Source: Pontibacter harenae
GTDB lineage: Bacteria > Bacteroidota > Bacteroidia > Cytophagales > Hymenobacteraceae
Reading direction: 5' to 3'
Length of the DNA stretch: 64,000 nucleotides
Assembly: GCF_020907245.1 (NCBI RefSeq)
Contig: NZ_JAJJWH010000005.1
Coordinates: 62,001 to 126,000 of the forward strand
The notes under the pieces are model-generated. The model was not told where the DNA came from. It was given only the letters and a program-made list of their open reading frames with translations, and made no database searches. The position numbers and the translations under genes were made by a program. Shown here piece after piece: positions 12,730 through 56,351 of the stretch. Positions within the stretch are counted from its first letter, which is position 1. Each line of letters opens with the position of its first letter.

Positions 12730-12752
12730 ATCTTAACTTGTAATTCTTGAGT

Positions 12753-14455: not shown

Positions 14456-14590
14456 AAGAACTGTGTAAATTAAATGGTATGTTGTACTTTTTTAACCTTA
14501 AAATACTTATTTATTATATATGCTGTTTTGATATATCAATATTCCTTTTTCACCGTATGCTGTTAATGTATCTGATAATGTAATACAACT

Positions 14591-33717: not shown

Positions 33718-33741
33718 CAATGCGGGAATCTAGTACTGCTG

Positions 33742-33749
33742 CAAAGGTA
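33742..33749 (-). promoter_or_regulatory. -7 box of the queA promoter
   Basis: The minus strand carries an exact TACCTTTG, placing the transcription start about 20 bases before the ATG. No TTG is found at a fitting distance. Confidence 0.45.
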
Positions 33750-33831
33750 CAGACTTCTTCTCTTTTAGAGCTACTATCGTTCCATCATCTGGTCCTTATT
33801 CCACTGCTTTTAAGAGTTATAGTTGCCCGCT

Positions 33832-38180: not shown

Positions 38181-38717
38181 TTACTGAATGCTTTTTATAA
38201 AATCTTCATCAAGTGGCTCATCATCGTCCTCGTCAGACGTAGCATTAAAATCTATCTCCTGCAGCAGCGCAAGTCCTTCCAGCATCAGTTCGTCCAGTTC
38301 TTCTTTAGAGCCAGCGTCTAACGTTCCTTCAAACAGGGCCAGTATTTCCTCTCGCTGCTCATTTACAAATATCTCGTGGTAGAGGTTATCGAAAAGAGCA
38401 ACTTTGGGCTGTATGGTTTTATCGATTTCTTTGACACTCTTAGCTTTAACTGCCTGTTGTAGCAACTGCAGTACTTCATGCGTATTTTCGTTATCTGCCA
38501 ACCGCACAAGAACCTTCACGAAAGCTATTGCTACTCCCAGGCGCACCATTTCAAAGCTAAAGTGTAATTCATCTGTAACACGGCCCTGCTGCTGACGTGA
38601 AGCTTTAAAAGCCTGCTCAAGTTTTTGATACACAGCTATGGCTGAGGTCGGGAAAACATTTGGTTGTTCTGGGGCAAAGGCAGTCTCAAGAAGTAGGGCA
38701 AAGCTTTTGGCGCTCAT
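38181..38717 (-). CDS. Hypothetical helical protein
   Basis: A 178-residue, mostly alpha-helical protein without a signal peptide or membrane segment. The C-terminus is very acidic (NATSDEDDDEPLDEDF). No family is recognised. A good promoter lies directly upstream, and the DUF2721 gene follows at 26 bases, so it is probably expressed and in an operon with it. Confidence 0.6.
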   Translation of the reverse strand: MSAKSFALLLETAFAPEQPNVFPTSAIAVYQKLEQAFKASRQQQGRVTDELHFSFEMVRLGVAIAFVKVLVRLADNENTHEVLQLLQQAVKAKSVKEIDKTIQPKVALFDNLYHEIFVNEQREEILALFEGTLDAGSKEELDELMLEGLALLQEIDFNATSDEDDDEPLDEDFIKSIQ

Positions 38718-39263: not shown

Positions 39264-42200
39264 ATGAAGCATTTGTTACAAACCTTTTATGTCTGTTGTT
39301 TTGTGCTTTCCCTCGGAATAGCGATTCCTGCAGCAGGACAGAGTGTTTTTATCAACGAAATTCATTACGACAACGCCAGTACCGATGCGGGTGAGGCTAT
39401 TGAAGTGGCTGGGCCTGCTGGTACAGATCTAACGAGTTGGAGCCTTGTCTTGTACAACGGTAATAACAGCGCGCCCTATAATACGCGGCAACTGGAAGGA
39501 GTGCTTGCTGACCAGAGCGGCGGTTATGGTTTTTATGTAGCTAATTATCCTACTAACGGCTTACAGAATGGAAATCCAGATGGTGTTGCTTTAGTAAATG
39601 GCAGTGGCGAGGTAGTGCAGTTCCTAAGTTACGGAGGCACAATCACGGCAGCAAGTGGTCCCGCTGCTGGCTTAACCAGTACTGACATAGGTGTGGCAGA
39701 GGGGGGGGCGACTGCGGTTGGCTATTCGCTACAGCTAACAGGTACAGGTAATGCTTACACCGATTTTACCTGGGCTTCTACTGATGCTCCCAACACATTC
39801 GGTGCTGTAAATACAGGACAGAGCATTGGAACAGGAGGAGGCGGTGCTGACCCTGGTACCGACCCAGAAACTGACCCTGAAACAGATCCTGACCCTGTGA
39901 CAGATCCAGAGCCAGCTACTACGCTTGTGTTCATCAACGAAATACATTACGACAATGCTGGTACTGACACAGGAGAGGGTGTAGAATTGGCAGGCCTTGC
40001 AGGTACTAACCTTACAGGCTGGCAACTGGTGCTTTACAACGGGAACAACGGTTTAGAATATAGCGCTATAACTCTAACGCAAACTATACCAAACCAACAA
40101 GCAGGCTTTGGTACCATATTCTTGTCTATTGCTGGCCTGCAAAATGGCGGACCCGATGGGGTAGCTCTGGTAGATGCCGATGGCAATGTTGTTCAGTTTC
40201 TGAGTTACGAAGGTACCTTTACTGCTGCCAATGGTCCTGCGGCTGGCTTAACCAGTACTGATATTGGTGTTACAGAGGGTAGTAGTACGGAAGTGGGCGC
40301 TTCACTTCAACTAATAGGTACAGGATCGGCCTACGAAGATTTTACCTGGGCCTCTGACGTGGCAGCAACTTATGGTGCCGTAAATAATGGTCAGACGTTT
40401 CTGCCTTTGCAGGATATCGTTTTCATCAATGAAATACATTATGATAATGATGGTGCTGATACAGGTGAAGCCATTGAAATAGCTGGGCGTGCAGGTACAG
40501 ATCTTACTGGCTGGAGCTTGGTTTTGTACAACGGCAACAACGGCGCTTCTTACGGTACATCAGCACTTTCGGGTACTATTCCAGACCAAACAAATGGCTT
40601 TGGCTTTGTAACCGTAACTTATCCTTCTAACGGGCTGCAAAACGGCTCTGCCGATGGAGTGGCCTTGGTTAATCCTGATGGGGAGGTAGTTCAGTTCTTG
40701 AGCTACGAAGGCAGCTTTACGGCTGTAGGAGGACCTGCCGATGGTTTAACCAGTACAGACATTGGTGTGGAGGAAGCTGGTTCAACGCCTCTTGGCTATT
40801 CTTTACAACTAACAGGAGCTGGCTTTACTTATGAAGTCTTTACCTGGAGCGGCCCCACTACGAACACATTTGGCGGGCTTAATGTAGGTCAGGACTTTGG
40901 CGGCGGCACAACTGAGCCAGATCCAGACCCAGAGCCGCAACAAGTAACTATTGCCGAAGCCAGAGCAATGCCGCTTAACTCTTTGGTAATTGTAAGCGGA
41001 ACTTTAACCGCTGCTAACGAACTGGGAGGTCCTGCTTATATACAAGATTCAACTGGTGGCATTCCTATTTTCGATGCCCAAGTACACGGCCCAGATGCTT
41101 TTGAAATAGGCGATTCTATACAGGTAACGGCCTCAGTTGGTGCCTACAATGAAATGGTACAGTTGGTGGATGTAACAAATGTAGAGAGCTTTGGCCCTGC
41201 TACAACTCCTGTTGCACCTGTAGTAGTAAGCATTTCTGACATTACAAGTGCACTCGAAGGCCAACTGATTAGGATACCAAATGCTACCTTTACAGATACA
41301 AAAGGACTACTTTTCCCTGAAAGTAACTATTTTATTAAAAATGGCACAGATAGCTTAGAACTGCGGATTGACGGAGATGTAGAAAGCCTGGTGGGCAGGG
41401 AAATTCCTGATGATGCTGTGGCAGTCACAGGTGTGTTAGGGAGCTTTAGAGGTACCCTGCAGTTGCTGCCTCGTTTTATAGAAGACTTGCCTGGCACTAC
41501 AGAATATGTGCCAGAAGGTACCAATATTCCTATAACTAAAACGCTCGATGTCATGACCTGGAACATGGAATTCTTTGGTTCTACTTTACCCACTTTCGGT
41601 CCAGCGGATGTGCAGTTACAGCTACAGAATGCCGTTAGATTAATTGATAGCGTTGATGCCGACATTATTGCAGTGCAGGAAATTTCTGATGAGAACCTGC
41701 TGCAGCAATTGGCAGATATGCTAGGTTATGAGCGTGTTTGCTCCGACCGTTACTCTTATTCTTTCCAAGAATCAGATGGGACATTCCCAGAGCAAAAGCT
41801 TTGCTTCCTGTACAACCCAGAGGTAATTACTTTTGTAGACGATAGAGTAATTTTCGAGGCTTTGTATGACTCCGCTCGTGTAGGTTACAGCACAGTTTTG
41901 GATGGTTACCCAGTTGGAAGTCCGTCTTCTTTCTGGTCTAGTGGCAGGTTGCCTTATATGATTACCGTAGATGCCACAGTGGAAGGCGTAACAGAAAGGT
42001 TCAGGCTAGTGAACATTCATGCTAAGTCAGGCGCAAGTGGCAATGACCTAGAAAGAAGAAGGTTTGATGTGCAGGCGCTGAACGATACGCTGGATCATTA
42101 TTACCCGAATGATAACATTATTTTACTCGGAGACTATAACGATGATGTGGATGAATCTATCGGAGGCGGACTCACTACATACAGCGAATTTGTAGAGGCT

Positions 42201-43115
42201 GAAAATTTCAGAGTGGTTACAGCTGCTTTAAGTGAGACAGGCTTACGTACTTACATCACCCAGGACAACGTTATCGACCATATTGCCATTAGCGATGAAC
42301 TGTATGACAACTACGTGTCAGGCTCTGCGGCTTTGGTTATACCTTTCTCCTACATCTACAATTACGGCAATACCACATCAGACCACCTCGCCGTAGTGAC
42401 CCGTTACGAACTGTCGGAGCCGCTTACGCTTGATGCGGGCACAAATCAGATCGTTTACCGAGGCTATGCACCTGCTGGCTGTGCTACCTTAACTGCCAGT
42501 GCAGCCACAGGCGGTTATCCTGACTATACCTACACCTGGAGCACTGGGCAAACAGGAGAGTCTATTCAGGTGTGCCCTGAGCAGACAACTGTATATACCG
42601 TTACTGTTACAGATGCCAGAGGCAACACTTTTACAGATTCTGTGCAGGTATGTGTGGTTGACGTAAGCTGTGGCAACGTCAGAAATCCAAAAGTACAGGT
42701 GAATTATAAAGCATCTGGAAAGTCTGACAAAAGCAGAACACTGTGTGTACCAGAATACACTGTTCCTGTGCACCTGGCCCTTGGAGCTACCTTAGGAGAT
42801 GGCAACGTGACTACCTGTGAGGGCAAGCCTGTACCTGTAGAGGAATTCAATCTGGAAGAATTTATCCTATCCTTTACAGCGTATCCTAATCCTGTTCAAG
42901 ACTACCTGCACGTAATCTTCGAGAAGCTGCAGGATAGTGATGTAGAGTTTGTTTTCTACAACAGCTTTGGGCAGGAAGTTTACAAGAAGTCGCATTTTGT
43001 TCAGAACGGAGAGATCGACCTTGATGTAAGAAAGATACGCCTGAGCAGAGGAATAAACTACCTGAAGGTAAACAGCAAGTACGGCAGCAAAACGTTGCGA
43101 ATAGTTAAGTTCTAA
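39264..43115 (+). CDS. ExeM/NucH-like extracellular endonuclease with T9SS sorting domain
   Basis: A 1283-residue exported protein. After the signal peptide (ending AAGQ), three lamin-tail-like modules begin FINEIHYDN (near 28, 222 and 386), separated by an Asp-Pro-Glu-Thr linker after the first. An OB-fold-like segment follows (about 563-735), then a DNase I-like endonuclease/exonuclease/phosphatase domain (about 758-1050). Its active-site motifs are intact: WNMEF (766-770), VQEIS (Glu806), NIHAKSG (His919), GDYND (956-960) and SDHLAV (Asp1040, His1041). An SprB/Ig-like module and a type A T9SS tail (AYPNPVQDYLHV to the C-terminal TLRIVKF) complete it. The layout matches ExeM/NucH extracellular nucleases. 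A run of eight G (39701-39708) lies in the first module. Confidence 0.9.
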   Translation: MKHLLQTFYVCCFVLSLGIAIPAAGQSVFINEIHYDNASTDAGEAIEVAGPAGTDLTSWSLVLYNGNNSAPYNTRQLEGVLADQSGGYGFYVANYPTNGLQNGNPDGVALVNGSGEVVQFLSYGGTITAASGPAAGLTSTDIGVAEGGATAVGYSLQLTGTGNAYTDFTWASTDAPNTFGAVNTGQSIGTGGGGADPGTDPETDPETDPDPVTDPEPATTLVFINEIHYDNAGTDTGEGVELAGLAGTNLTGWQLVLYNGNNGLEYSAITLTQTIPNQQAGFGTIFLSIAGLQNGGPDGVALVDADGNVVQFLSYEGTFTAANGPAAGLTSTDIGVTEGSSTEVGASLQLIGTGSAYEDFTWASDVAATYGAVNNGQTFLPLQDIVFINEIHYDNDGADTGEAIEIAGRAGTDLTGWSLVLYNGNNGASYGTSALSGTIPDQTNGFGFVTVTYPSNGLQNGSADGVALVNPDGEVVQFLSYEGSFTAVGGPADGLTSTDIGVEEAGSTPLGYSLQLTGAGFTYEVFTWSGPTTNTFGGLNVGQDFGGGTTEPDPDPEPQQVTIAEARAMPLNSLVIVSGTLTAANELGGPAYIQDSTGGIPIFDAQVHGPDAFEIGDSIQVTASVGAYNEMVQLVDVTNVESFGPATTPVAPVVVSISDITSALEGQLIRIPNATFTDTKGLLFPESNYFIKNGTDSLELRIDGDVESLVGREIPDDAVAVTGVLGSFRGTLQLLPRFIEDLPGTTEYVPEGTNIPITKTLDVMTWNMEFFGSTLPTFGPADVQLQLQNAVRLIDSVDADIIAVQEISDENLLQQLADMLGYERVCSDRYSYSFQESDGTFPEQKLCFLYNPEVITFVDDRVIFEALYDSARVGYSTVLDGYPVGSPSSFWSSGRLPYMITVDATVEGVTERFRLVNIHAKSGASGNDLERRRFDVQALNDTLDHYYPNDNIILLGDYNDDVDESIGGGLTTYSEFVEAENFRVVTAALSETGLRTYITQDNVIDHIAISDELYDNYVSGSAALVIPFSYIYNYGNTTSDHLAVVTRYELSEPLTLDAGTNQIVYRGYAPAGCATLTASAATGGYPDYTYTWSTGQTGESIQVCPEQTTVYTVTVTDARGNTFTDSVQVCVVDVSCGNVRNPKVQVNYKASGKSDKSRTLCVPEYTVPVHLALGATLGDGNVTTCEGKPVPVEEFNLEEFILSFTAYPNPVQDYLHVIFEKLQDSDVEFVFYNSFGQEVYKKSHFVQNGEIDLDVRKIRLSRGINYLKVNSKYGSKTLRIVKF

Positions 43116-43225: not shown

Positions 43226-44248
43226 TTACCAAACCCATTGTGAGTTTGTTTCCCTGTTCCTGTTGTTAAGCTTAAATCCTAAAACTACTTCATGGCTGCC
43301 CGCGCTGTATTTATTTAGCTCAGAAGTGGTGAAGTCGTAGGAGTAGGCTAGGTCGAAGAGGTCGCCTATGCTGGCACCAGCCAGGACAGCCACCGCATCT
43401 TGATGGCGGTACGAAAGGCCTGCCCAGTACTTCTGGTCATACATCAGCTTTGCGTTTAAATCCAGTGCCACTGCGGAGGTGCTTGTTTTCTTCAACATAA
43501 GCGACGGGACAAAGGCTAGCTCTTTGCTGAAGTGCATACGCATACCAGCCGTAGCATAGTAGTGCGCCTGTCGCAACCTGTGGAACTGTGCAGCGTCGCC
43601 GTTGCCCTGCTGCGCCGGGTCCTGCTTGTCAGGCACTAGTTGCGTACCTGATAAACCGATGTAAAAATCAGGACTGTACAACCAGAAACCAACACCTAAA
43701 TCCAGCTTAGCAGTGTTAGGTACAGCGCCAGTCAGGTAAGCATCGTTGGTATCGAAATAAATGGCATCGCCTGTTTTAACGCTATAGTTCGAGAGGCCTG
43801 TAGATATACCGCTCGATAGGTTGATGTAGCGAGAAATTGGCAGGTGGTAAGCATAGCTCACGTTAAACGTGCTGGTGTTTAGTAAGCCTGCTTTGTCTAC
43901 CTGCGCAAACATACCGATACCGTGGTGCGGCGATACAGATCGCAGGCTGTTTTTGTTTGTAAACCCGTACCTGTTTATCCTTCTGGACTTCGGGTTACTC
44001 GTTCGGCGTGGCTGCCCGAGCATGGTGTGGGCAGACGCATAAAAGCTTTTCGGTGCCCCCTCTAGTCCTATCCATTGGGCTCTGTAGCCTGTCCTAATAT
44101 CGGCATAGTTTTCTATGCCGCCCACCGCTGGGTTGTGCAGGTAGTTGTTTAGTACGTATTGTGAGTACTGCGGACGTTGTTGTGCCATGGCAGCGCCTAC
44201 GCTTAAAACAAAAGCTATGATAGTGGTAATTGTTAAGTTCTTCTTCAT
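43226..44248 (-). CDS. PorP/SprF-family T9SS outer-membrane protein
   Basis: A 340-residue outer-membrane beta-barrel protein with a signal peptide (ending GAAMAQ). The family start is clear in QRPQYSQYVLNNYLHNPAVGGIENYADIRTGYRAQW, and the rest alternates beta-strands (GISTGLSNYSV, DLGVGFWLYSPDFYIGLSGTQL, KYWAGLSYRH). In Flavobacterium johnsoniae, SprF is required to secrete the adjacent giant adhesin SprB, and other PorP/SprF proteins pair with their own type B-CTD cargo. Here the gene follows the 4031-residue protein by 7 bases on the same strand, so this pair is most likely a cargo and its dedicated outer-membrane partner. Confidence 0.93.
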   Translation of the reverse strand: MKKNLTITTIIAFVLSVGAAMAQQRPQYSQYVLNNYLHNPAVGGIENYADIRTGYRAQWIGLEGAPKSFYASAHTMLGQPRRTSNPKSRRINRYGFTNKNSLRSVSPHHGIGMFAQVDKAGLLNTSTFNVSYAYHLPISRYINLSSGISTGLSNYSVKTGDAIYFDTNDAYLTGAVPNTAKLDLGVGFWLYSPDFYIGLSGTQLVPDKQDPAQQGNGDAAQFHRLRQAHYYATAGMRMHFSKELAFVPSLMLKKTSTSAVALDLNAKLMYDQKYWAGLSYRHQDAVAVLAGASIGDLFDLAYSYDFTTSELNKYSAGSHEVVLGFKLNNRNRETNSQWVW

Positions 44249-44255
44249 GGCGCTG

Positions 44256-47200
44256 TTATTTTACAAGTGTTACACTTCCTGAAATCGGTTTATCCTGGTC
44301 CGTAAGGCGGATGATATAGTAATAAGCTGCCACTGGCAAGGCTTTACCGTTTTTGGTGCCGTTCCATGCCTCCTTATAGCCCTTCGACTCGAACACCTTT
44401 TCGCCCCAGCGGTTGTAAATTTCCACACTGCAGCTTGGGTAGTATTCAATGTTCTTAATGATGAACTTGTCGTTATGGTCGTCGCCGTTGGCGGTAATCA
44501 CGTTGGCTGGAATAACAGAGTACAGTACCGTTACCGTAACTTCTGCTTCAGCAGTACAGCCTTCTGCTGTTGTAACCGTAACCTTGTAAGTGGTAGTCTT
44601 GGTAGGGCTGGCTGTTGGTGTGGCGCTGTTTGCATCAGAAAGACCCTCAGCAGGTGACCAACTATAGCTTACACCTCCCTGAGCCTCTAACTGCACCGAC
44701 TCACCTTCCTGAATTGTTACATCACCGCTTACTATAGCTTTTGGCATTACTACTATGGCTTTTACCTCCAGGCGGCTAGCGCTGCTGCAGTTATTCTCAT
44801 TGATGGTTTGCACATAATAACTGGTGCTGGCACTAAGGGCAGGCGTTGTAAAGCTGGTGCCTGTAAACAGCTTGTTACCTCCCTGTGTCGCATCGTACCA
44901 TTCAACTGTAACATTAGCGGCTACTGTAGCTGTAAAGGTAACAGAACTGCCAGGGCAGGTGCTAACATCGGCTACAGTTGGTAAAGCTGGCTGCGGTAAC
45001 ACGTCAATCTTAACAGCGGCACTGGTGCTCTCGTGGCAATCGCCAGAGCTAACCACACGCTTAAACCAAGTCGTTTGCGAAAGGGCCGTAGACTGGTAAT
45101 CGATTGTGTTGTTGGTGCCTGAGGCAGGAGCGAAACCTGCGTTGGCGCTCTCTGTGCTCATCAACCAAAGGTAAGTGTACTTGCCGCTGGCACCTGTAGG
45201 AGCAGCGCCTGTAAGTGTAGCTAACTGACCGCCGCAGATGCTTTGGTTGCTTGCTGCAATCGTGTTGTTCTGGATCGGATCGTTTGGTACTACTTCGATC
45301 TTCACCTCGTTGCTGGCAAGTTCTCCGCATAAATCTGATACAATTACTCTGCGGAACCAGGTAGTTTGCTGCAGTGCTGCAGGCTGATAATCGGCTTTGT
45401 CTGCACTTGCGATGGTAGTGAAAGAGGTACCATTCAAGCTCATCTCCCAACGGAAAGTATAGGTTTGCACTGTGTCAGCTGGCGTGTCTCCTGTAACAGG
45501 AGCAGGGGCAGTGTTGTAGCAAACTTCAGCTGATGTGGTTGCTATGCTGTTGCTGGCAATCGGCTGTACCACTTTCACCTCCACTACATTCGACTCTTGG
45601 CTGCAACCTCCTGTGTGGGCCATTCTTCGGAACCAGGTGCTGTTGCTCAGGTTGCCAGGGCTGTAGCTTGCTGCTGTAGCGCCTTGAATATTGCTGAAGT
45701 CGCTGCCGTCGCTGCTGCTTTGCCACTGGAACGTATACTGGTTGTCGTTGCCAGCCTTAGCGCTTGTGCTGCCTAAGGTGGCCGCTGTTGCGCCTGCACA
45801 TATAGTTTGTGCGCCTGCTAGCTGGTTCACGATTGGCTTGCGTAGTTTAATTTCCACTACGTTACTGTAAAGTGCATCGCAGGTACCGCCTGTTACTTTA
45901 CGGCGGAACCAGGTTGTTTTATTAAGCGCCTCAGGTTGGTAATCTGCTTCTGTAGCGCCCGCTATAGCTGTGTACGTACCGTTCGCGCCTGTCTCACTTT
46001 TCTCCCATTGGAAGCTATAGTCGCCGTTGCCTCCCGAAAGAGTAGCTGTAGTCAGGGCTTCTGCTGTTGCACCTACACATATTTCCTGATTTCCTGCGAT
46101 GGTGTTTACGAGCGGCTGCGCTAGCTGTAATTCTATTGCTTCGGAGGTGCTGGTACAGGTAGCGGTTGTTACAACACGTTTAAACCAGGTTCGTTCGCTG
46201 ATGCTCGTGGTATAGCTGGCCTCCGTAGCACCTGCTATTTCTGTAAAGCTGGTGCCGTCGCTGCTCATTAACCATTGATAATTATAGCTGCTGTTGGCTG
46301 GGCTGTCGCTGCTGAGCGTAAAGTTGGTGCCTACACAAACAGGAGCAACTGCTTTCAACACGTTATCGGCTATGGCTGGCGCAACCGTTATGGTTACAGT
46401 GTTACTAAACATCTCACCACAGTTGCCCGTTGTAATCACACGGCGATAAGTCCAGGTGCCAAGCGCTAAGGCTTCAGTTGGTTCATACTCTTCGGTGCTG
46501 GCTACTGTCTCAAATTCTCCTCCGTCCAGGCTGCGTTCCCAGCGGAAGGTCAAGCTGCTAACATCGCCATCTATAGGTTTGCTGCTGGTGAAGCGGCTCG
46601 GTACGCTGTTCTCGCAAAGGCTGGTGCTGGCAGTAGAGATCTCGTTCGTGATGCCAGGCACCACCTCTATCTCCACCACCTCGCTCACTAATTGCTGGCA
46701 AGCACCTGAACGAGCTATACGTCTGAACAGTACTGGTTCCGTAACAGGAGAGCTGAAAGTATAGCTTTGCTCGTCGTTCGTGCCTGGGGCAGGATTGAAG
46801 TTTGTCGCATCATCTGCCTGTGCCCACTGCCATTCGTATGTATAAGCTCCGCTTCCGCCTGTCGGCTCGGAGCCAGAAATCATGTTAGGTATAGCTCCTG
46901 CACAAACTGCGCCATCTGTATAGCTAATGCTGTTGTTGGCCAGCACAGGTTGTACTTCCACAAAAACAGTATTCGACATAGCCTCACAAGTTCCTGTGCG
47001 TACCTCACGGCGGAACCAGGTAGAGGTGCTAAGTGCAGCAGGAGTATAATCCTGAGCTGTTGCACCCTCAACTACTGTGAAACCTGTAATGCTGCTCTCG
47101 GTGCTGGCGTACCACTGATAGCTATAGTTGGCATCACCGTTTCCAGTTAATTCCGCAGGTGTGCCCGTGCCACAAAGGGTCTGGTCGCCCGAAATAGTGT

Positions 47201-50200
47201 TATTAGCCAGGGTGCTTCCTACTTCTATTGTCACTTCGTTCGAGATAGAGGTACATCCTCCTGAGCTAACCACTCTTCTGAAAGTAGTTGTTTGAACTAA
47301 GGCTGTCGGTGTATAATGCTGCTGATCATTCGTGCCCGCTGCTGCTGCAAAGGCTTCGTTGCCTGTGCGCTGTTCCCACACAATGCTATAGCTGCCGTTA
47401 CCGCCTGAGATGCTACCAGTAACTTCACCCGCAGTTCCTCCTGTACAAATGGTTGCCATGGACGCTGCGATGCTGTTGCTGATGGCAGGAGCTATCGTTA
47501 CGTTTACCGCAGCTTTCGGACCTGCACAGCCTAAGGCGTTTACAGCCTCTACATAGTAAGTGGCATCTGCATTTAAAACCGCTGTTTCGTAAGTCGCACC
47601 CGTGTGCAGCAAATGGCCGCTGGTGTTGTACCACTTGTAGCTTAGCCCCTGTGCTGGATTTGCAACAGCAAGCGAAGCAGTTTGGCCTGCACACGTAGTG
47701 GCGTCAGCTGCAACAGGGGCAACAGGCGTTGGTGTTACTTCTATTTTAATGACGTTAGATTCAGCGGTACATCCTTCTTCTGAGTAAACCACTCGCTTAA
47801 ACCAGGTGGTTTGGTTAAGAGAAGTTGGCGTGTAGCTTTGGGAAACAGTGTCGGTTACAGACTCAAAGCCTGTGGTGGCACTGGTGGTGCTGGCGAACCA
47901 TTCGTAGGTGTAAACACCGCGGCCTCCGCTTGGTTTGGCTCCCGTTAAGGTACCTGGTGAACCGCCTTCACAAACAGCTGCCTCTGGTGTTGTAATATTA
48001 CCTGCTACCAATTCTGGCAACACTGTAGCCGTTACAGCACTACGGTTGCTCGTGCAAACTGACTCACCTGCAAGAACAGCCTCCACATAAAGCGTTGTAG
48101 TTACTGTCAGGCTTTCGATGGTGTAAGCAGTGCCTGTGGCTAAGACAGTGCTAGAGCTGTTGCTGCTGTACCAATTGTACGTATAAGCTTCATTAGCATC
48201 TTCTACAGATAAGGTTACACTGCCACCTGAACAGGCAGCCGCATTGGCTACCACTGGTGCTGCAGGAGCTGTTACAACTGTTACCTTTACTACATTGCTC
48301 ACTGCTTCCTGGCAAGTAGCTCCTGATGCTTTTCTGCGGAACCAGGTGTCTTGCACAAAGCTGCCTGTCGGGTTGTAGTTCTGCGCGTTGTTTGTACCTG
48401 GAGCAGCTGTATAATCCGTGCCGTTTTGGCTAATCTCCCACACGTAAGTATAAGCGCCGCCGCCGTCAGTTGGTTTGGTACCCGTTATAGTGGTTGGGGT
48501 GCTGCCACTACAGATAATCTGCTCACCGCTGATGCTGTTGTTGGCCAAAGGTGGCGTTACTGTTACGGTAACTTCCGTACGATCACTTGTACAACCTGTA
48601 GCACTTGTAGCTTCAACATAATAAGTGCTGGTAGCCGTAAGATTAGCAGCTGTAAAGGTATCACCTGTATAAAGCAGGTCTCCTGTTTCGCTGTACCACT
48701 TGTAAGTATAAATACTGCTGGCTGTAGCTGTTAACGTTGCACTGCCGCCGCTGCAGGTGGTGGTCGTACCACTTATCTGTGGAGCCGCTGGCAGCATTTC
48801 TGTCTCAATCTTTACAATGTTAGATGCAGCTGAGCAAGTACCATCTTTTACTTCCCGCTTAAACCAGGTGGTTTGTGTAAGGGCAGTTGGCTTATAGTCT
48901 TTGGCTGTGGCACCGCTGATGGAGACAAAATCGTTTGGCGATCCTGTTGTGCTGGCAAACCACTGGTAAGTAAGGTCTTCTGAAGAAACATCATCTCCAG
49001 TGATCGTGCCTGGCGCTGTACCCACACAAACAGCCGTCTCTGTTGCCGTGATAGTACCGCCTGCCAACGCAGGATTTACCGTTACTATCACCTCTGTTTT
49101 GCTGCTGGTGCAATTGGTGGTGGCAGCTACAAAGTAAGAGGTAGAAGTAGTAAGGCCTTGAGTTGTGAAACGAGTTCCCGTACCCACTACTGCGCCTGTG
49201 GCATTGTACCAGGTATAGGTCGTGTTTCCAGATGGAGAGCTTACGCTTAGTTCCGTTGAAGCGCTGTAGCAGATGCTTGCATTAGCTACAACTGGAGCTT
49301 GTGGCGATGGCGCTACTGTTACCTTCACTACATTGCTTACATTTTCCTGGCAGCCTGCTGAAGTTACTTTTCTTCTGAACCAGGTGTCTTGAATAAGAGC
49401 TGCGGAAGGTGTATAGTTCAGTTCATCTGTTGTGCCTGTCGCAGTGGAGAAGTCTATTCCGTTTTGGCTGCTCTCCCACAGGTAAGTATAGTCTCCGCTT
49501 CCGCCATTAGGTGTAGTGCCTGTTAAAGCTGCCGCTGCAGCACCGTTGCAGATGGTTTGGTTTCCGCTGATGCTGTTGCTGCTGATAGCAGGCGTTACAG
49601 TAACGGCTACAGCTGTTCTTTCTGAGCTGATGCAGCCATTGCTGTTTACTGCTTCTACAAAATAAGTGACAGAGACAGTGAGAACTGGCGTGGTAAAGGC
49701 TTGGCCTATGTGCAGCAGGTTGCCCGCTGTGTTATACCAGTTATAAGTATCTTCTGTGGCCGTAGCAGTTAATGTTGTCGAGCTGCCACTGCAGATGCTT
49801 GTCAGGCCACTAACTTGTGGAGTGGCTGGCAGCGTTATTACCTCCACTTTTACCACATTTGATCCAGTTTCGCAGCTACCAGTGCTGATCTCTCGCTTAA
49901 ACCAAGTTGTCTGGCTCAGGTTTCCTGGGGCATAGTCTTTAGCAGTAGCCGCGCCGATGGCTGTGAAACCTGTGCTGTTACCTTCTGTGCTGGCAAACCA
50001 TTGATAAGTAAAGTTGTTGTTGCCATCTCCAACCAATACAGCAGCTTCGGTTCCTAAACAGATAGTTTGATTGCCTGAGATGCTGTTGCTGGCGATGCCT
50101 GGAGTGACAGTTATGGTTACTTCGTTTGATACAGTTTCGCAACTCGCAGAGCTAACTTTTCTTCTGAAAGTGGTTGTCTGCTGCAGTGTGCCTGGTGCGT

Positions 50201-53200
50201 AGGCCTCAGCGGTATTTGTACCTGTGGCAGGCTCGAAATTGCCGTTGCCAATACGCTGCTCCCATAAAATAGTATATGTGCCGTCGCCACCCACCAGGTT
50301 ACCTTCTATAGTGCCTGCGTTGCCGCCTTGGCATAAAATAGGAGTGGAAGCGGTAATGGTATTTGTTAAGGCAGGAGTCACAGTTACTGTCGCCTCTGCC
50401 CTTGGGCTAATACAGCCTGTGGCATTTTCTGTCTCTACTGTATAACTGGTAGTAGAAGAGAGAGCAGGAGTTGTAAAGCTGGTACCCGTATAAACTAATT
50501 CTCCTGCTGCATTAAACCAACGGTGCGTGCCGCCTGAGTTGCTTACAGTAAGTATGGTGCTGCTGCCCTGGCAGATTTCAGTTGTGCCTGCTATAGTAGG
50601 AGCAATTGGCTGCTGCTCTACTGCTACCTGCACTACATTAGATTCTGACTCACATTCACCTGACGTTACTATTCTTTTGAACCAGGTGTTCTGGTTTAAA
50701 GCCTCTGGTGTGTATGTTTCGGTAGAGGCTACTAAGGTAAAGCCTGTGGTGGCGCTACTGGTGCTGGCAAGCCACTGGTAAGTATAGCTGCCGTTGCCGC
50801 CTCTAGGTGCTTCACCTAATAACGTTCCAGGAGTTGTTCCGCTGCAAATTTCAGCTTGAGGTGAAGTAACGGTGCCGCCAGCTAATGCAGGATTTACGGT
50901 AACCGTTACTTCTGTGCGGCTGCTGGCACAGTTGGCAGTTCCTGTTGAAGAAGCCTCTGCATAGTATGTAGTTGTAGCTGAAAGTGCAGGCGTGGTAAAG
51001 GTTGTAGCGGTTTCTAAAAGTGTGCCGCTGTTGCTGTACCATTTGTATACAACTCCGTTTGCTGGGGAAGTAACTTGTAAGGTGGCTGTAGCACCTTCGC
51101 ATACAGTAGCGTTGGCTACAACTGGGGCTTCCAAAGCTGATGCAACTGTAATTTTTATGGTGTTGCTGCTAACTTGCTGACAATTGGCAGAACGCACGGT
51201 TCTTCTGAACCACATGTTTTGTGTTACGGCTCCGAGAGGTGTGTAGTGCTGCTCATTATTGGTTCCTGCGGCATCTGCAAAGTCAGTTCCGTTTTGGCTT
51301 GCTTCCCACAGATATGTAAAGTTTCCGTTTCCGCCTGTTGGTGTGCTGCCTGTTAAAGTTGCTGATGTGCTGCCGCTACAGATGGTCTGCTCACCGCTGA
51401 TCGTGTTGTTTGCAACGGCAGGTATAACGATAACAGATACTGTAGTTGAAGCGCTTTCACAACCAGTGCTGTTCTGTGCTACAACTGTGTAGGTGGTGCT
51501 TGTACTTAAAGCTGGAGTTTCGAAAGCTGTACCTGTGTTCACAAGCGAGCCCGCCGTATTGTACCACTTGTAAGTTAGGTTTTGGATCGAACTTGTAACT
51601 GTAAGTGAGGCGGTTTGGTTTGCGCAGATGCTGGCGTTTGCTACAACAGGTGCTACAGGTGCATCCACAACTTCAATCTTCTCTGCGCTTGACTCTATCG
51701 TGCATTTGCCAGAAGTTACAGTGCGTTTAAACCAGGTTGTTTCATTTACAGCTGCTGACGTGTAATTGGCTCCTGTGGCGTTAGGTATAGCGTTAAAACC
51801 TGCTGTTGCACCTGTTTTGCTGGCGTACCATTGGTAGGTATAGTTGCCATTGCCACCAGTTGGAGTTTCTCCTGTAATAGTACCAGGTGCTGTTCCTTTG
51901 CATACAGCGGCAACAGGTGCGGTAATCTGGTCTCCTGCTGTAAGAGGAGGCGTAACAGTTACAACTACCTCTGTTCTGTTGCTAGTGCAGGCAGTTGCTC
52001 CAGAAGCAACTGCTTCAACATAATAGCTGGTAGAAGCATTAAGAGCAGGTGTGTTAAAATTGGAACTAGTGTGGATAGCCTGGCCGCTGGTGCTGCTGGT
52101 GTACCATTTATAGCTTACACCATCGCTTACGTTTTCTACAGACAATGTTACGCCTGCACCAGCACAAACAGAAGCATTTGCTACCACTGGTGCAGCTGGT
52201 AACGGTGCTACCGTTATTTTAATTAAGCCGCTAACAGATTCTTGGCAAAACTGACCCTTTACTTTTCTGCGGAACCAGGTGTTTTGGGTAAAGCTACTCG
52301 AAGGGTTGTAATCTTGGGTATTGTTAGTGCCAGGGGCAGCTGTAAAGTCGGTGCCGTTGGTACTAACTTCCCACAGATATGTATAGGCACCTGCTCCGCC
52401 AGTTGGCTCAGAACCTGTAAGCGTTGCCGCTACATTTCCGTTGCAGATGGTTTGGTTTCCGCTAATGGTATTATTTGCAACAGGTGGTACCACAGAAATG
52501 GTAACAGTTGCTGCTGTACCCTCACAACCTGTTTCGTTTACGGCCACTACAGTATAGGTCGTGTTGGCAACTAGGGCAGGTGTGGTGAAAGTAGCTCCTG
52601 TAAAAGCTAAGTTATCTTCTTTATACCACTTATAGGTATTTCCGTTTCCTGAGGCAGTTAAGGTAGTAGTACTACCGCTGCAGATGGTTGTAGTTCCTAC
52701 TACTTGTGGGGCAGTAGGTAAGCTGGTTACCTCCACTTTTATCACGTTCGATTCTGCGGTGCACTCACCTGACACTATAGTGCGTTTGAACCAGGTGGTT
52801 TGTGCAGGAGCAGTCGGAGTGTAGTCTTTAGAAGTAGCGTTGGCAATGGCTGAAAAGTCTACTGAGTTGGTGCTGCTGTACCATTGGTAGCTGTAGGTGC
52901 TGGCTCCGTTGCCTGTTAGTGTACTTGGGGTGCTGCCAGGGCAGATGCTTTGGCTTCCTTGTATACTGTTGCTGGCGATGGCTGGTGTTACGTTGATGGT
53001 TACTTCATTCGATACACTGGAGCAGCTACCAGAACTAACTTTTCTTCTGAAGGTAGTTGTCTGGTATAGTACGCCTGGTGTATAGTCTGCTTGTGCATTA
53101 TCGCCAGGAGCAGCTGTGAACGTGTTGTTACCAGTTTTCTGTTCCCAAACAATTGTGTATGTGCCGTTGCCGCCTGTTAAGGAGCCGCCAATAGTTCCTG

Positions 53201-56200
53201 GGGCTTCGCCTTCACAAATGCTGGCTTTAGCTACTGCAACAGTGTTAACTAGAGCAGGAGTAACAGATACAGCCACTTCGGTTTTTAGACTGATACAGCC
53301 ACTGGCGCTTTCAGCTTCAACAAAAAAGCTGGTGCTGGCTGAAAGAGCTGAGGTAGCGAAAGTGGTGCCTGTATGAACCTGAGAGCCATTGGAGCTGTAC
53401 CAGCGGTATGTATAACCTGATGAAGCTGTGACAGACAAAGTAGTAGATGAACCACTGCAAATAGAAACTGTACCTGCTACAACAGGTGCTGCTGGTAAGG
53501 CTTCCACATTTACTTTCACCACATTAGACTCAGCTGTGCACTCTCCAGAGCTAGCTACCCTTTTAAACCAGGTAGTTGCGCTCAGGCTTTCTGCTGTGTA
53601 ATCTGCTGCTGTTGCTTGGCTTATTTCTGCGAAACCTGCTGTGCTGCTTGTGGTGCTGCTGTACCATTGGTAAGTATAGTTGCCATTTCCGCCTGTGGCT
53701 GCCGATCCTGTTAATTTGCCTGGTGAAGTATCTGTACAGATAGTTGCCTTTGGTGTGCTTATACTTCCTGCTGCCAATGCTGGCGTTACGGTAACAGTTG
53801 CTTCAGTTCTGCCGCTGGTGCATTGAGAGGTTGTGAAAGCCTGTACAAAGTAAGAAGTGGTGGCTTGCAAGGCAGGAGTCGTATAGCTGATTCCTGTGGC
53901 AAGTTCCAGTCCTCCAGCGTTGTACCATTTGTAAGTAATGCCTGCTGCTGCATTGCTGACTGTTAGTTGTGCCGTAGCACCTGAGCAAATGGCAGTATTG
54001 GTTACTATAGGTGCATCAGGCAGAGGTGCTACGGTAACTTTAACTTCAGCACTAACGCTTTCCTGGCAGGTTCCGCTACTTACCTTTCTTCTGAACCAGG
54101 TATCTTGAGTAAGAGCTGAGGAAGGTTTATAGTTTAGTTCATCTGATGTGCCTGTTGCAGTGGAGAAATCTGTTCCGTTCTGGCTTACCTCCCATTGATA
54201 GGTATAGTTGCCGCTTCCGCCAGCAGGCTGTGAGCCTGTAAGAGTAACTGGGGTAGCGCCGCTGCAGGTGGTTTGGTTTCCGCTGATGCTGTTGTTGCTG
54301 ATAGCAGGCGTTACAGTAATAGCTACAGCTGTTCTTTCTGAGCTGATGCAGCCATTGCTGGAAAAAGCCTCTACATAATAAGTGGAGTTACTGGTGTAGT
54401 TGCTCTTAGCGTAAGTATTTCCTGCATGGAAAGCTGTTCCGCCAGTAGCTACTGTGTACCAATTGTAAGTAAGGCCTGCTTCTGGCGCAGTTACTTCTAA
54501 AGTGGCGCTGTTGCCAGTGCAAATGGTAGCACTAGCAAGCTGGGGTGCCGCAGGAATAGCAAAGATAGTAACGAGCTGCTCCGTTTCTGTGGAAGTGCCA
54601 CACTCGTTACGAACGCTTAATTTAATAGTATAAGTACCTGCTGAGGGAAAAGAGATGTTTGGAGACGCAGAACTGGCTGAGGTGCCTCCTGTAAAACTGG
54701 CATCTTTATCCACCGCCCAGGTATAGGCATTGATGCTGCCACCGTTTGAGTTGAACACAGGCTTGTGCTTGCTGTCGGTGCCGTTGAACGTTAGCGTCTG
54801 TGGGCCGCAGTAACTCTGGCTGGCAGGTAAGACTGCTGTTGGCTCACCTTTGATAGTAATCTGTTTAGACGTTTGGGTGTCGTAGCAGTTATTAGATTTG
54901 GTAGTCAGGGTAATGGTATAGGTGCCTTCTTTTGAAAACCTGAATGTTGGATTTGAGCTTGTCAGGGTTCCGCTGCTAAGGGTGTAGTTAGTGGCAGGAG
55001 AAACAGCCCAGCTATATCCGATGGCGTTCGTAGAGCTGTTGGTCATAGCCACATCGGTGTTTTTACAAAAAGAGGTGGCATTAGCAGGTGTAGAGAAACT
55101 CGCTACTGGCGGCGGTAGCACAACAAACTTTTTAGTTACAACACGCGATCCACAGTTAGGAGTACTAACCATCAAGCTTACATCATACTCTCCAGGAGTT
55201 GAAAATTTAACGCTTGCATTTTCCCAGTTTTCATCCAGAGATACTAACGTCCAGCCTTGGGCGGGCGAAATGCTTCCCGCATAAGTAACACTGCAGTTCT
55301 GTTCCTTAGAAGTAGTATTTGTAAAGTAAACCGTTTCGCCCACACAAATATTTAACTTGCCTGTGCTGAACGTGAAATTTGGAATGGCCTGCTTGCTGAT
55401 CACAATACCTGTTGCTTTTGCCACAGGCGAGGTGCCGCACTCGTTTTCGGCTGTACCCGTTAAAGTAAATGCTCCGTTGGGCTTGCTGCAGGAACTGCTG
55501 GTAAAGGTGTGGGTGATGGCGGCTGGTAACGTTTCCTGAGTAAACTCATACGGAGCAGAGCCATCGTCAAAAGAAAAGGTGTATTTTGTTCCAGCTGTGT
55601 TGCCCTGGTAGTTACTTAACGGGAAACTATAAGTTACAGAGGGAGCCTCGGGTGTTAAGCATGCTGTAGTGCTGGCAGGCTTGCTGATGGAAAAGCTAGG
55701 AGTTCTGGAGTTGATAACCGTGTAGTACTTTGTGCCTACGCAGTTGCCGTTACGGCCACCTAAAGCCGAAACACTTAGTATAAACTTTCCTAGGGTAGTG
55801 TAGGTATGTGTGGCAGTTGTATAAGAGGCGGGTAAGGTTTGCGTGCTTCCATCGCCCCAGTTTATAGTATAGCCAACGTTAGAATCTTTGGTGGTAGACA
55901 TGTTCACCACCGTTAATTTATAACTTGAGTTTGTAGCTGTACCGCAGTTCATGAAGGGAGTATCTGTGGTAGTAGCATCTGCTATGGTAGGGTCAGGCAT
56001 GTTGCCTACCGTAATGTTCATGACCTTCGTGCTTGTACAGCCTGAGACATCTGTTACTGTTAATTTAACAGCAAACGTTTGGCTACCTGTTGATAGCCCG
56101 AAAGCATTAAATTCGTGGTTCGGGTTCTTGTCGCTGCTGGTGTTAAAATCTCCAGCGGCAGGGTCTCCAAAATCCCAGGCATACTTTACAATATTACCCG

Positions 56201-56351
56201 ATGACTGGTCTACGAAAATAACCTTTCCGTTACAGCCGCCTGCCATGTTGTACTTGAAGTCTGCTACAGAGCTGCAGGTTTGTGAAAAGGCATTGTTAAA
56301 GGTGTTGCACAGCAGAAATAATGTGCATAGCAGTGGTAGAATTTTCTTCAT
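44256..56351 (-). CDS. Giant repeat adhesin (4031 aa) with gliding-motility-associated C-terminal domain
   Basis: A T9SS-exported surface protein of 4031 residues in one unbroken frame. Order: signal peptide (1-24); PKD-like domains to about 598 (for example KYAWDFGD, TINWGDGS, TFSFDDGS); then 37 modules of 80-96 residues, 23 of type A (QTIC start, YTYxWE, then TWFRRK, TWFKR or TTFRR) and 14 of type B (ICSGS, YKWY, TSYYVEA); an Ig/PKD-like module (about 3866-3943); and the C-terminal domain (about 3944-4031: NVITANGDDHNDKFII, NRWGEKVFESKGY). Modules follow a higher-order pattern. The length, modularity and the PorP/SprF gene 7 bases downstream match SprB-type adhesins. A cell-surface adhesin role is inferred; binding targets are unknown. 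A minus-strand -7 box lies upstream (56514-56521). Confidence 0.93.
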   Translation of the reverse strand: MKKILPLLCTLFLLCNTFNNAFSQTCSSVADFKYNMAGGCNGKVIFVDQSSGNIVKYAWDFGDPAAGDFNTSSDKNPNHEFNAFGLSTGSQTFAVKLTVTDVSGCTSTKVMNITVGNMPDPTIADATTTDTPFMNCGTATNSSYKLTVVNMSTTKDSNVGYTINWGDGSTQTLPASYTTATHTYTTLGKFILSVSALGGRNGNCVGTKYYTVINSRTPSFSISKPASTTACLTPEAPSVTYSFPLSNYQGNTAGTKYTFSFDDGSAPYEFTQETLPAAITHTFTSSSCSKPNGAFTLTGTAENECGTSPVAKATGIVISKQAIPNFTFSTGKLNICVGETVYFTNTTSKEQNCSVTYAGSISPAQGWTLVSLDENWENASVKFSTPGEYDVSLMVSTPNCGSRVVTKKFVVLPPPVASFSTPANATSFCKNTDVAMTNSSTNAIGYSWAVSPATNYTLSSGTLTSSNPTFRFSKEGTYTITLTTKSNNCYDTQTSKQITIKGEPTAVLPASQSYCGPQTLTFNGTDSKHKPVFNSNGGSINAYTWAVDKDASFTGGTSASSASPNISFPSAGTYTIKLSVRNECGTSTETEQLVTIFAIPAAPQLASATICTGNSATLEVTAPEAGLTYNWYTVATGGTAFHAGNTYAKSNYTSNSTYYVEAFSSNGCISSERTAVAITVTPAISNNSISGNQTTCSGATPVTLTGSQPAGGSGNYTYQWEVSQNGTDFSTATGTSDELNYKPSSALTQDTWFRRKVSSGTCQESVSAEVKVTVAPLPDAPIVTNTAICSGATAQLTVSNAAAGITYKWYNAGGLELATGISYTTPALQATTSYFVQAFTTSQCTSGRTEATVTVTPALAAGSISTPKATICTDTSPGKLTGSAATGGNGNYTYQWYSSTTSSTAGFAEISQATAADYTAESLSATTWFKRVASSGECTAESNVVKVNVEALPAAPVVAGTVSICSGSSTTLSVTASSGYTYRWYSSNGSQVHTGTTFATSALSASTSFFVEAESASGCISLKTEVAVSVTPALVNTVAVAKASICEGEAPGTIGGSLTGGNGTYTIVWEQKTGNNTFTAAPGDNAQADYTPGVLYQTTTFRRKVSSGSCSSVSNEVTINVTPAIASNSIQGSQSICPGSTPSTLTGNGASTYSYQWYSSTNSVDFSAIANATSKDYTPTAPAQTTWFKRTIVSGECTAESNVIKVEVTSLPTAPQVVGTTTICSGSTTTLTASGNGNTYKWYKEDNLAFTGATFTTPALVANTTYTVVAVNETGCEGTAATVTISVVPPVANNTISGNQTICNGNVAATLTGSEPTGGAGAYTYLWEVSTNGTDFTAAPGTNNTQDYNPSSSFTQNTWFRRKVKGQFCQESVSGLIKITVAPLPAAPVVANASVCAGAGVTLSVENVSDGVSYKWYTSSTSGQAIHTSSNFNTPALNASTSYYVEAVASGATACTSNRTEVVVTVTPPLTAGDQITAPVAAVCKGTAPGTITGETPTGGNGNYTYQWYASKTGATAGFNAIPNATGANYTSAAVNETTWFKRTVTSGKCTIESSAEKIEVVDAPVAPVVANASICANQTASLTVTSSIQNLTYKWYNTAGSLVNTGTAFETPALSTSTTYTVVAQNSTGCESASTTVSVIVIPAVANNTISGEQTICSGSTSATLTGSTPTGGNGNFTYLWEASQNGTDFADAAGTNNEQHYTPLGAVTQNMWFRRTVRSANCQQVSSNTIKITVASALEAPVVANATVCEGATATLQVTSPANGVVYKWYSNSGTLLETATTFTTPALSATTTYYAEASSTGTANCASSRTEVTVTVNPALAGGTVTSPQAEICSGTTPGTLLGEAPRGGNGSYTYQWLASTSSATTGFTLVASTETYTPEALNQNTWFKRIVTSGECESESNVVQVAVEQQPIAPTIAGTTEICQGSSTILTVSNSGGTHRWFNAAGELVYTGTSFTTPALSSTTSYTVETENATGCISPRAEATVTVTPALTNTITASTPILCQGGNAGTIEGNLVGGDGTYTILWEQRIGNGNFEPATGTNTAEAYAPGTLQQTTTFRRKVSSASCETVSNEVTITVTPGIASNSISGNQTICLGTEAAVLVGDGNNNFTYQWFASTEGNSTGFTAIGAATAKDYAPGNLSQTTWFKREISTGSCETGSNVVKVEVITLPATPQVSGLTSICSGSSTTLTATATEDTYNWYNTAGNLLHIGQAFTTPVLTVSVTYFVEAVNSNGCISSERTAVAVTVTPAISSNSISGNQTICNGAAAAALTGTTPNGGSGDYTYLWESSQNGIDFSTATGTTDELNYTPSAALIQDTWFRRKVTSAGCQENVSNVVKVTVAPSPQAPVVANASICYSASTELSVSSPSGNTTYTWYNATGAVVGTGTRFTTQGLTTSTSYFVAATTNCTSSKTEVIVTVNPALAGGTITATETAVCVGTAPGTITGDDVSSEDLTYQWFASTTGSPNDFVSISGATAKDYKPTALTQTTWFKREVKDGTCSAASNIVKIETEMLPAAPQISGTTTTCSGGSATLTATASSIYTYKWYSETGDLLYTGDTFTAANLTATSTYYVEATSATGCTSDRTEVTVTVTPPLANNSISGEQIICSGSTPTTITGTKPTDGGGAYTYVWEISQNGTDYTAAPGTNNAQNYNPTGSFVQDTWFRRKASGATCQEAVSNVVKVTVVTAPAAPVVANAAACSGGSVTLSVEDANEAYTYNWYSSNSSSTVLATGTAYTIESLTVTTTLYVEAVLAGESVCTSNRSAVTATVLPELVAGNITTPEAAVCEGGSPGTLTGAKPSGGRGVYTYEWFASTTSATTGFESVTDTVSQSYTPTSLNQTTWFKRVVYSEEGCTAESNVIKIEVTPTPVAPVAADATTCAGQTASLAVANPAQGLSYKWYNTSGHLLHTGATYETAVLNADATYYVEAVNALGCAGPKAAVNVTIAPAISNSIAASMATICTGGTAGEVTGSISGGNGSYSIVWEQRTGNEAFAAAAGTNDQQHYTPTALVQTTTFRRVVSSGGCTSISNEVTIEVGSTLANNTISGDQTLCGTGTPAELTGNGDANYSYQWYASTESSITGFTVVEGATAQDYTPAALSTSTWFRREVRTGTCEAMSNTVFVEVQPVLANNSISYTDGAVCAGAIPNMISGSEPTGGSGAYTYEWQWAQADDATNFNPAPGTNDEQSYTFSSPVTEPVLFRRIARSGACQQLVSEVVEIEVVPGITNEISTASTSLCENSVPSRFTSSKPIDGDVSSLTFRWERSLDGGEFETVASTEEYEPTEALALGTWTYRRVITTGNCGEMFSNTVTITVAPAIADNVLKAVAPVCVGTNFTLSSDSPANSSYNYQWLMSSDGTSFTEIAGATEASYTTSISERTWFKRVVTTATCTSTSEAIELQLAQPLVNTIAGNQEICVGATAEALTTATLSGGNGDYSFQWEKSETGANGTYTAIAGATEADYQPEALNKTTWFRRKVTGGTCDALYSNVVEIKLRKPIVNQLAGAQTICAGATAATLGSTSAKAGNDNQYTFQWQSSSDGSDFSNIQGATAASYSPGNLSNSTWFRRMAHTGGCSQESNVVEVKVVQPIASNSIATTSAEVCYNTAPAPVTGDTPADTVQTYTFRWEMSLNGTSFTTIASADKADYQPAALQQTTWFRRVIVSDLCGELASNEVKIEVVPNDPIQNNTIAASNQSICGGQLATLTGAAPTGASGKYTYLWLMSTESANAGFAPASGTNNTIDYQSTALSQTTWFKRVVSSGDCHESTSAAVKIDVLPQPALPTVADVSTCPGSSVTFTATVAANVTVEWYDATQGGNKLFTGTSFTTPALSASTSYYVQTINENNCSSASRLEVKAIVVMPKAIVSGDVTIQEGESVQLEAQGGVSYSWSPAEGLSDANSATPTASPTKTTTYKVTVTTAEGCTAEAEVTVTVLYSVIPANVITANGDDHNDKFIIKNIEYYPSCSVEIYNRWGEKVFESKGYKEAWNGTKNGKALPVAAYYYIIRLTDQDKPISGSVTLVK
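46944..49832 (-). repeat. Higher-order unit 3 of the giant adhesin (2,889 bp)
   Basis: Eleven modules in the order B-a-B-b-B-a-B-b-B-c-d, where a to d are sub-types of the A module. It is exactly as long (963 codons) as the preceding unit at 49833-52721. The boundaries were taken at the Leu-Pro that begins each leading B module and at the start of the next A module. Confidence 0.75.
49555..49644 (-). repeat. Near-identical tract, copy in unit 3
   Basis: Ninety bases that differ at three positions from 54271-54360, which lies 4,716 bases away in unit 1. It spans a B-to-A module junction (reading SSERTAVAVTVTPAISSNS). Confidence 0.85.
49833..52721 (-). repeat. Higher-order unit 2 of the giant adhesin (2,889 bp)
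   Basis: The same eleven-module order as unit 3 and an identical length of 2,889 bp. Unit 1 (about 52722-54557) is a shorter relative, B-a-B-b-B-c-d with seven modules. The modules differ in sequence between units, so the duplication is not recent overall, although short tracts are nearly identical. Confidence 0.75.
54271..54360 (-). repeat. Near-identical tract, copy in unit 1
   Basis: The partner of 49555-49644, with 87 of 90 bases identical. High similarity continues into the neighbouring A module (around 54121-54190 against 49408-49473). Confidence 0.85.

Follow-up and report, generated by a model that had tools for sequence, protein, structure and literature searches.

The 64,000-nt stretch of Pontibacter harenae DNA analyzed here (the window) comes from a 4.85-Mb draft genome in 112 contigs that is 87.65% complete. 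It contains a single uninterrupted 12-kb gene encoding a giant protein of 4031 aa, followed 7 nt past the giant's stop codon by a 340-aa ORF of the PorP/SprF family (Table 1). Both genes lie on the minus strand, the giant first and its carrier second. The first-pass annotation of this sequence had recognized the pair, leaving out its strand, and had read it as a T9SS adhesin with its PorP/SprF partner, on the precedent of SprB and SprF in Flavobacterium johnsoniae. This reading depended on a gliding-motility-associated C-terminal domain (CTD), which is borne out: the CTD scored 57.5 bits against TIGR04131 (cut-off 35) and 85.7 bits against CHU_C PF13585 (cut-off 27), and the carrier scored 226.7 bits against TIGR03519 (cut-off 90.55) and 224 bits against PF11751 (cut-off 22.3). 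The type A CTD (TIGR04183) was absent from the giant's matches at E ≤ 1. Chance does not account for an ORF of 4031 codons that encodes a periodic array of domains. Scans for promoters and terminators returned counts near those of shuffled sequence.

Table 1 Features of the locus, with positions counted in the window
Feature	Position	Strand	Evidence
Gap corresponding to the second carrier gene (PorP2) of three or more relatives	33721..33831		L080/L194, L086/L195, L081/L196
Orphan protein of 1063 aa with a type B CTD and modules AAAB, lacking a carrier gene of its own	33832..37023	minus	TIGR04131, 65.7 bits
1283-aa protein with lamin-tail (3 stretches), endonuclease/exonuclease, and type A CTD (Por_Secre_tail)	39264..43115	plus	Family search
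PorP/SprF-family outer-membrane carrier, 340 aa	43226..44248	minus	TIGR03519 and PF11751
C-tail of carrier, 13 residues without cysteine	43229..43267	minus	Cys-Pro at the corresponding position in relatives
Giant T9SS type B substrate, 4031 aa	44256..56351	minus	Uninterrupted ORF, ATG start
Type B C-terminal sorting domain of giant (TIGR04131), residues 3950–4030	44262..44504	minus	Profile match and predicted structure
Ig/PKD-like domain of giant ahead of CTD, residues 3874–3944	44520..44732	minus	K319L-like_PKD, residues 3877–3942; model pLDDT 92.9
Last B (Ig_7) module, residues 3791–3873	44733..44981	minus	Module profiles
Cell-proximal run of seven diverged A modules, residues 3139–3790	44982..46937	minus	Nearest solved relative RemA
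Seven-module block 3, residues 2520–3138	46938..48794	minus	Module profiles
Four-module block 2, residues 2174–2519	48795..49832	minus	Module profiles
Seven-module block 2, residues 1565–2173	49833..51659	minus	Module profiles
Four-module block 1 (B A1 B A2), residues 1211–1564	51660..52721	minus	Module profiles
Seven-module block 1 (B A1 B A2 B A3 A4), residues 600–1210	52722..54554	minus	Module profiles
N-terminal head of giant with PKD-type domains, residues 25–599	54555..56279	minus	PKD_4 (4 stretches), PKD (5 stretches)
Hydrophobic, signal-peptide-like stretch of giant, residues 1–24	56280..56351	minus	Judged by eye

The giant has a mass of about 418 kDa and a pI of 4.65, with Thr, Ala, and Ser abundant. 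In a sequence search, the best solved-structure match of its head (residues 1–599) was the PKD domain of ColH, and most of the head is common to many paralogues and to the relative in genome G004, at 32–42% identity. In the model predicted for the CTD, a three-residue helical turn accompanies four strands of at least three residues each, which agrees with the published prediction of a four-strand sheet for CTDs of type B (PMC12618676).

Profiles built from the giant's own repeats, with A modules counted above 50 bits, resolved residues 600–3873 into 23 A and 14 B modules placed end to end, exactly the numbers first proposed. The first-pass annotation had held that these modules are not the SprB repeat and might form a separate class of T9SS surface filament. 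Its first statement is right for the whole giant, which stays below the cut-off for the SprB repeat (PF13573, 21.3 vs. 28 bits), and we rejected that repeat as the unit of the array; taken singly, 11 of 23 A modules do match the SprB repeat weakly (E ≤ 0.1), and 15 of 23 match Ig_7 at the same threshold. The second statement was supported neither by a profile search of the modules nor by a structure prediction. In the profile search, the B module is Pfam Ig_7 (PF19081), and the A module is a diverged relative of it (hhalign, A profile vs. a single B module: probability 95.9). RemA of F. johnsoniae has A modules too, and among 198 genomes sampled from the phylum they occur in 44, the giant's own included (33 of 103 genera). 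The structure prediction was run on a B-A-B-A stretch (pLDDT = 94.7), for which eight GhpA entries occupied ranks 1–8 both in Foldseek (best E = 1.3e-18, TM = 0.72) and in VIA-align 2 (Z = 17.2 to 14.8; best 321 residues at 3.5 Å); the first row other than GhpA in VIA-align 2 was Robo1 (Z = 13.7 at 9.6 Å). Because B is Ig_7, A recurs in RemA and across the phylum, and the B-A-B-A stretch matches the GhpA shaft, the giant does not form a separate filament class; its own genome holds eight further adjacent CTD–carrier pairs. Each of the 37 modules contains exactly two cysteines, so that one disulfide per module is likely.

GhpA of Aureispira sp. CCB-QB1 (PDB 9flp and seven more entries) was also the best solved-structure match of both the whole giant (E = 4e-124) and the module profile (E = 6e-176). 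The two proteins have in common a long Ig-like shaft of the same fold and arrangement and a match to the type B CTD, GhpA residues 5802–5889 matching the CTD part of a profile made from the C-terminus of the giant and its relatives (74.9 bits). They differ in length (5898 residues in GhpA vs. 4031) and in the WFRR motif, which is missing from the GhpA stretch over the A position in the excerpt printed by HMMER (domains 1–3). On the strength of these matches and of the leading ranks in both fold searches, the giant could be thought to build a multimeric, GhpA-like grappling hook that catches other cells. We consider this very unlikely, however, since its head (residues 1–599) found only PKD-type entries and no GhpA at E ≤ 1 in the sequence search, and since the hooks of Aureispira work with a type VI secretion system (PMC11205867), whose VipB (PF05943) had no match in the 87.65%-complete genome. 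RemA (PDB 8gl6) shares modules of the A (WFRR) type with the giant and matches its cell-proximal A run (E = 1.5e-19), but RemA has a type A CTD and goes with PorV (PMC12618676), unlike the type B giant.

Modules 1–29 of the giant form a 7-4-7-4-7 higher-order repeat with a period of 11 modules, or about 962 residues. Modules of the same type at lag 11 are 51.6% identical on average, a value reached in 1 of 10,000 within-type shuffles; the signals at lags 4 and 7 over both module types were weaker (222 and 771 of 10,000 shuffles). The lag-11 signal was confined to A modules (55.5%, 0 of 5000 shuffles as high), and no higher-order repeat was seen in B modules at this lag (46.7%, 2535 of 5000 shuffles as high). 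In the tree of A modules, the A3 group (modules 6, 17, and 28) has a support of 100/99, with 12 of 20 inner branches open. A recent expansion of the array at the DNA level was not supported: direct repeats of at least 60 nt are only 61–75% like their reference copies, and the average for lag-11 modules is as low as given above.

Four relatives with the same carrier clade and locus show how variable such arrays are: 2430 aa with 13 A and 7 B modules in G004, 4136 aa with 10 A and 35 B in G007, 3119 aa with 8 A and 25 B in G017, and 4655 aa with 11–12 A and 40 B in G018. The giants of G007, G017, and G018 retain only the last ~95 residues of the head. The CTDs of three relatives (G004, G007, and G017, the ones measured) are nevertheless 57–68% identical to that of the giant. 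The head and the array thus turn over, and what persists is the CTD with its carrier. The array itself illustrates the growth of such fibres by duplication of multi-domain blocks, head and array changing and CTD and carrier staying. G018, which might have been taken to lack a giant, does have one: its 4655-aa giant adjoins the carrier in reversed gene order, with the carrier upstream (L199, G018:C18:60500-80400, positions 696–14663), and forms a further Pontibacter pair besides the 69 A/B-module pairs compared with the window's below.

The genome encodes SprA (2425.6 bits, over the cut-off) and GldK (470.8 bits, cut-off 350), the latter with its neighbors in the frame, in a gldK cluster at C64, and also a GldJ-like protein with a match below the GldJ cut-off. 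The cysteines of its GldK lie at 51, 218, and 262, with one more near the N-terminus; one of these may correspond to Cys343 of F. johnsoniae GldK. In total, we counted 11 PorP/SprF genes and 13 type B CTDs, which make nine adjacent pairs (9 of the 11 PorP genes); the window's giant is the longest protein among them. The nearest named relatives of its carrier, from P. silvestris and an uncultured Pontibacter, are 53% identical to it, and the search for its relatives included 38 other genomes, 24 of them from the window's own genus. The carrier had no match among solved structures and matched nine records in a plasmid collection, all at <60% identity.

We compared CTDs with carriers in 80 stretches around PorP homologues from 24 further genomes of the genus (69 best matches and 11 more distant ones), in 12 stretches from the own genome, and in the window. 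These gave 94 distinct CTD proteins, 89 of them with a carrier just downstream. CTD identity is strongly and positively correlated with carrier identity over the 89 pairs in 25 genomes (r = 0.959); re-pairing inside genomes gave a mean r of 0.111 and a maximum of 0.454, with 0 of 2000 re-pairings as high as the observed value. Inside genomes (148 comparisons, 88 pairs, one cut-off protein being left out), the correlation with the carrier was highest for the CTD (r = 0.937), followed by the preceding 100 residues (r = 0.897) and the N-terminal 200 residues (r = 0.675), and the partial correlation was 0.896 for the CTD when the N-terminus was allowed for and 0.348 for the N-terminus when the CTD was allowed for. 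In only 27 of the 89 pairs did CTD and carrier share their nearest neighbor in other genomes. Joint inheritance of neighboring genes would likewise make their similarities correlate, with no contact between the products, and since the two genes of these 89 pairs range from an overlap of 4 nt to a spacing of 93 nt, CTD and carrier genes travel together. That linkage and co-duplication of neighbors explain the whole correlation, with no partner recognition, nevertheless strikes us as improbable: the N-terminus is equally linked but follows the carrier much less, and cognate specificity has been shown in F. johnsoniae, where type B CTDs need their own SprF-like shuttles, some of which are static (PMC12618676). 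SprB is known to bind SprF (PMC9143113).

The window holds a second type B CTD protein, of 1063 aa, that lacks a carrier. Its counterparts in G004, G007, and G019 (L080, L086, and L081) are followed 4–6 nt downstream by a carrier and then by a gene that we take to be queA-like; in the window, the presumed queA-like gene comes 111 nt after the 1063-aa gene with no carrier between them. Because relatives hold a carrier at this place, the second carrier gene, PorP2, has probably been lost from the window's locus. Neither the 1063-aa gene nor PorP2 is present at L030. Within the genome, the orphan CTD is closest to that of the giant (57%) and then to that of L021 (55%), and the PorP2 proteins of the three relatives are closest to the L021 carrier (51–55%). 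Conversion of the orphan CTD by that of the giant after the loss of PorP2 was not supported, the like pair of CTDs in G004 and G007 being 55% and 56% identical compared with 57% here. Orphans that share one carrier are known (PMC12618676).

The giant and its carrier are of a known kind, a type B adhesin with a carrier of its own, and this assignment is well supported. What is unusual is that the carrier lacks the tail cysteine of its clade. Among the same 89 pairs, a cysteine is present in the last 20 residues of 69 of the 70 carriers of A/B-module proteins, the sole exception being the window's carrier, and in 0 of the 19 carriers of other type B proteins; the count leaves aside PorP proteins that are unpaired, and the compared carriers were drawn as matches to the window's carrier. 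The 69 other A/B-module pairs resemble the window's in their related CTDs and carriers, with the carrier just downstream in 69 of 69, but all 69 keep the cysteine, and the number and order of their modules vary widely. The split is not strict, because two of four Mucilaginibacter carriers lack the cysteine (L036 and L037, vs. L035 and L038 with it) and L025, an unpaired PorP from the own genome, carries one. We found no statement on such a split in the excerpts of PMC12635249, PMC12618676, and PMC9143113 (subscription literature lay mostly outside our scope).

In a carrier tree built without the tail (93 sequences, two cut-off pieces having been dropped from 95 rows), the window's carrier belongs to a clade of five with a support of 100/99. 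Because the other four members have the cysteine, its absence here is most likely a derived loss. Searching 50 genomes from the genus, the own one included, gave 42 matches, of which 30 were taken as loci, the 30th being that of the window; the tail cysteine is present at all 29 others, 18 of which come from 17 genomes new to the set. No relative exceeded 57% identity in this search, so that the loss is known from one draft genome of the completeness given above. A frameshift as the cause of the odd tail was rejected on reading the DNA, given that the last four residues, QWVW, agree with those of relatives in the same frame. The window's carrier has the longest terminal branch of its clade (0.62 vs. 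0.18–0.34), and four or five residues of its tail are changed. These two features, together with the probable earlier loss of PorP2 from the locus, would fit a carrier decaying under relaxed selection, with the giant depending partly on another carrier such as that at C90 (L021). We think this quite unlikely, however, as the carrier ORF is intact and scores far over its cut-off, QWVW is kept, and the reading frame of the giant is intact over all its codons.

The meaning of the tail cysteine is best approached from SprF. The window's pair resembles SprB–SprF in having a giant type B CTD protein directly followed by its PorP/SprF-family carrier, and differs from it in having Ig_7 and Ig_7-like modules with no SprB repeat over the cut-off. 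It also differs in the tail, which in SprF carries Cys-X-Cys and here lacks any cysteine. This motif in the periplasmic C-tail of SprF is dispensable for SprB export and needed for gliding through a disulfide to GldK, changing either cysteine abolished gliding, and a weak residual contact with the track is retained without the disulfide (PMC12635249). SprF has two tail cysteines; a single one serves in PorG of Porphyromonas gingivalis (PMC12635249), and by analogy the single Pontibacter cysteine may link the carrier to GldK.

A second point of comparison is the gene after the carrier. By OmpA profile, no PorE-like gene adjoins the window's carrier, the next gene being the convergent nuclease gene. 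A PorE-like gene follows 5 of 19 tail-less and 0 of 38 cysteine-bearing carriers counted (Fisher test: P = 0.0028, a value that is too small because the rows are related). From the 20 rows without a cysteine, L195 (475 aa, not a carrier) was dropped, and ten of 40 downstream stretches, with <80 aa of the carrier inside, were left uncounted (L157, L158, L164, L165, L168, L170–L172, L181, and L182); the OmpA profile found no matches on these ten. At L023, a further tail-less carrier precedes a protein whose OmpA match falls below the cut-off. In the static Fjoh_3952–Fjoh_3951 system a type B protein is held rather than moved (PMC12618676), as we propose for the giant, but a PorE-like gene is present there and none follows the window's carrier.

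Taken together, we consider it likely that giant and carrier make up one surface system of the SprB–SprF kind, a secreted and carrier-anchored rod that is probably not track-driven. The giant would enter the periplasm through Sec and pass out through the SprA translocon, and the adjacent PorP/SprF protein would take its type B CTD, stay bound, and so anchor the chain. The 37 Ig-like modules, with one cysteine pair each, and the PKD-type domains would form a long thin rod with the PKD head at its far end, probably an adhesive fibre; the adhesin role, already given as an inference in the first-pass annotation, is one that we infer as well. This rod would be held and not driven along the gliding track, because the carrier lacks the tail cysteine kept by nearly all its relatives and has no adjacent PorE-like gene. 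The static state taken by itself we hold tentatively, as somewhat less than an even prospect. The giant could instead be a SprB-like gliding adhesin that its carrier drives along the track through another contact: type B CTD, SprF-family carrier, GldK, and a GldJ-like protein are all present, a PorE-like gene is absent from beside the carrier, and the residual track contact of SprF offers a precedent. We regard such gliding as unlikely, because 69 of 70 comparable carriers have the cysteine that this one lacks, because loss of either cysteine stopped gliding in SprF, and because the GldJ match is below its cut-off.

A broader reading would join these observations. Pontibacter type B carriers would fall into classes readable from sequence, with the tail cysteine present in those of Ig_7/A-B adhesins and absent from those of other substrates; the giant would have been uncoupled by loss of the cysteine, and the orphan would borrow a carrier. 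We offer this as possible, though on balance doubtful. If it is true, a single tail cysteine couples the carriers of Ig_7/A-B adhesins to a moving track that contains GldK, a moving gliding adhesin has become a fixed or freely drifting surface rod, and a neighboring adhesin has lost its carrier gene and now borrows one. Should the tail-cysteine rule hold, a few carrier residues would tell motor-driven from merely held T9SS adhesins by sequence, and the window's locus would be a natural loss of the motor link. The split of 69 of 70 vs. 0 of 19 and the carrier-less 1063-aa neighbor would serve as test cases for carrier choice and crosstalk.

Several further observations were made at the locus and elsewhere. 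The 1283-aa gene is convergent to the carrier gene and sits between the giant pair and the orphan; at L030, no gene of this size lies between the carrier and the next two small genes. The window encodes on its minus strand a DUF2721 protein (37741–38154) and an unnamed 178-aa protein (38181–38717); by eye, likenesses of both occur near the L030 carrier, and of the 178-aa protein in L029 and G018. In the own genome, a 1373-aa frame with Ig_7 and A modules at C22:6762-8048 lies outside the TIGR04131 matches and is possibly a type A substrate. On C1, at about 203000–205400 (L025/L201), the PorP-like protein with a tail cysteine comes directly before a GldJ-like lipoprotein with a sulfatase-modifying-factor fold; this site is separate from the gldK cluster at C64. 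In Pontibacter genomes, several PorP homologues with an identity near 39% have a stop inside the matched stretch (e.g., G019:C1:275183). At L084 (G023 contig 73, 4177–7940) and L223, the upstream neighbor of the carrier is an 839-aa protein without a CTD match, and the CTD is matched by a 94-aa open frame next to the carrier, possibly a broken pair. Three tandem adhesin–carrier pairs occur at L077 and L083 (G024 contig 11), and two of their CTDs are 89% identical.
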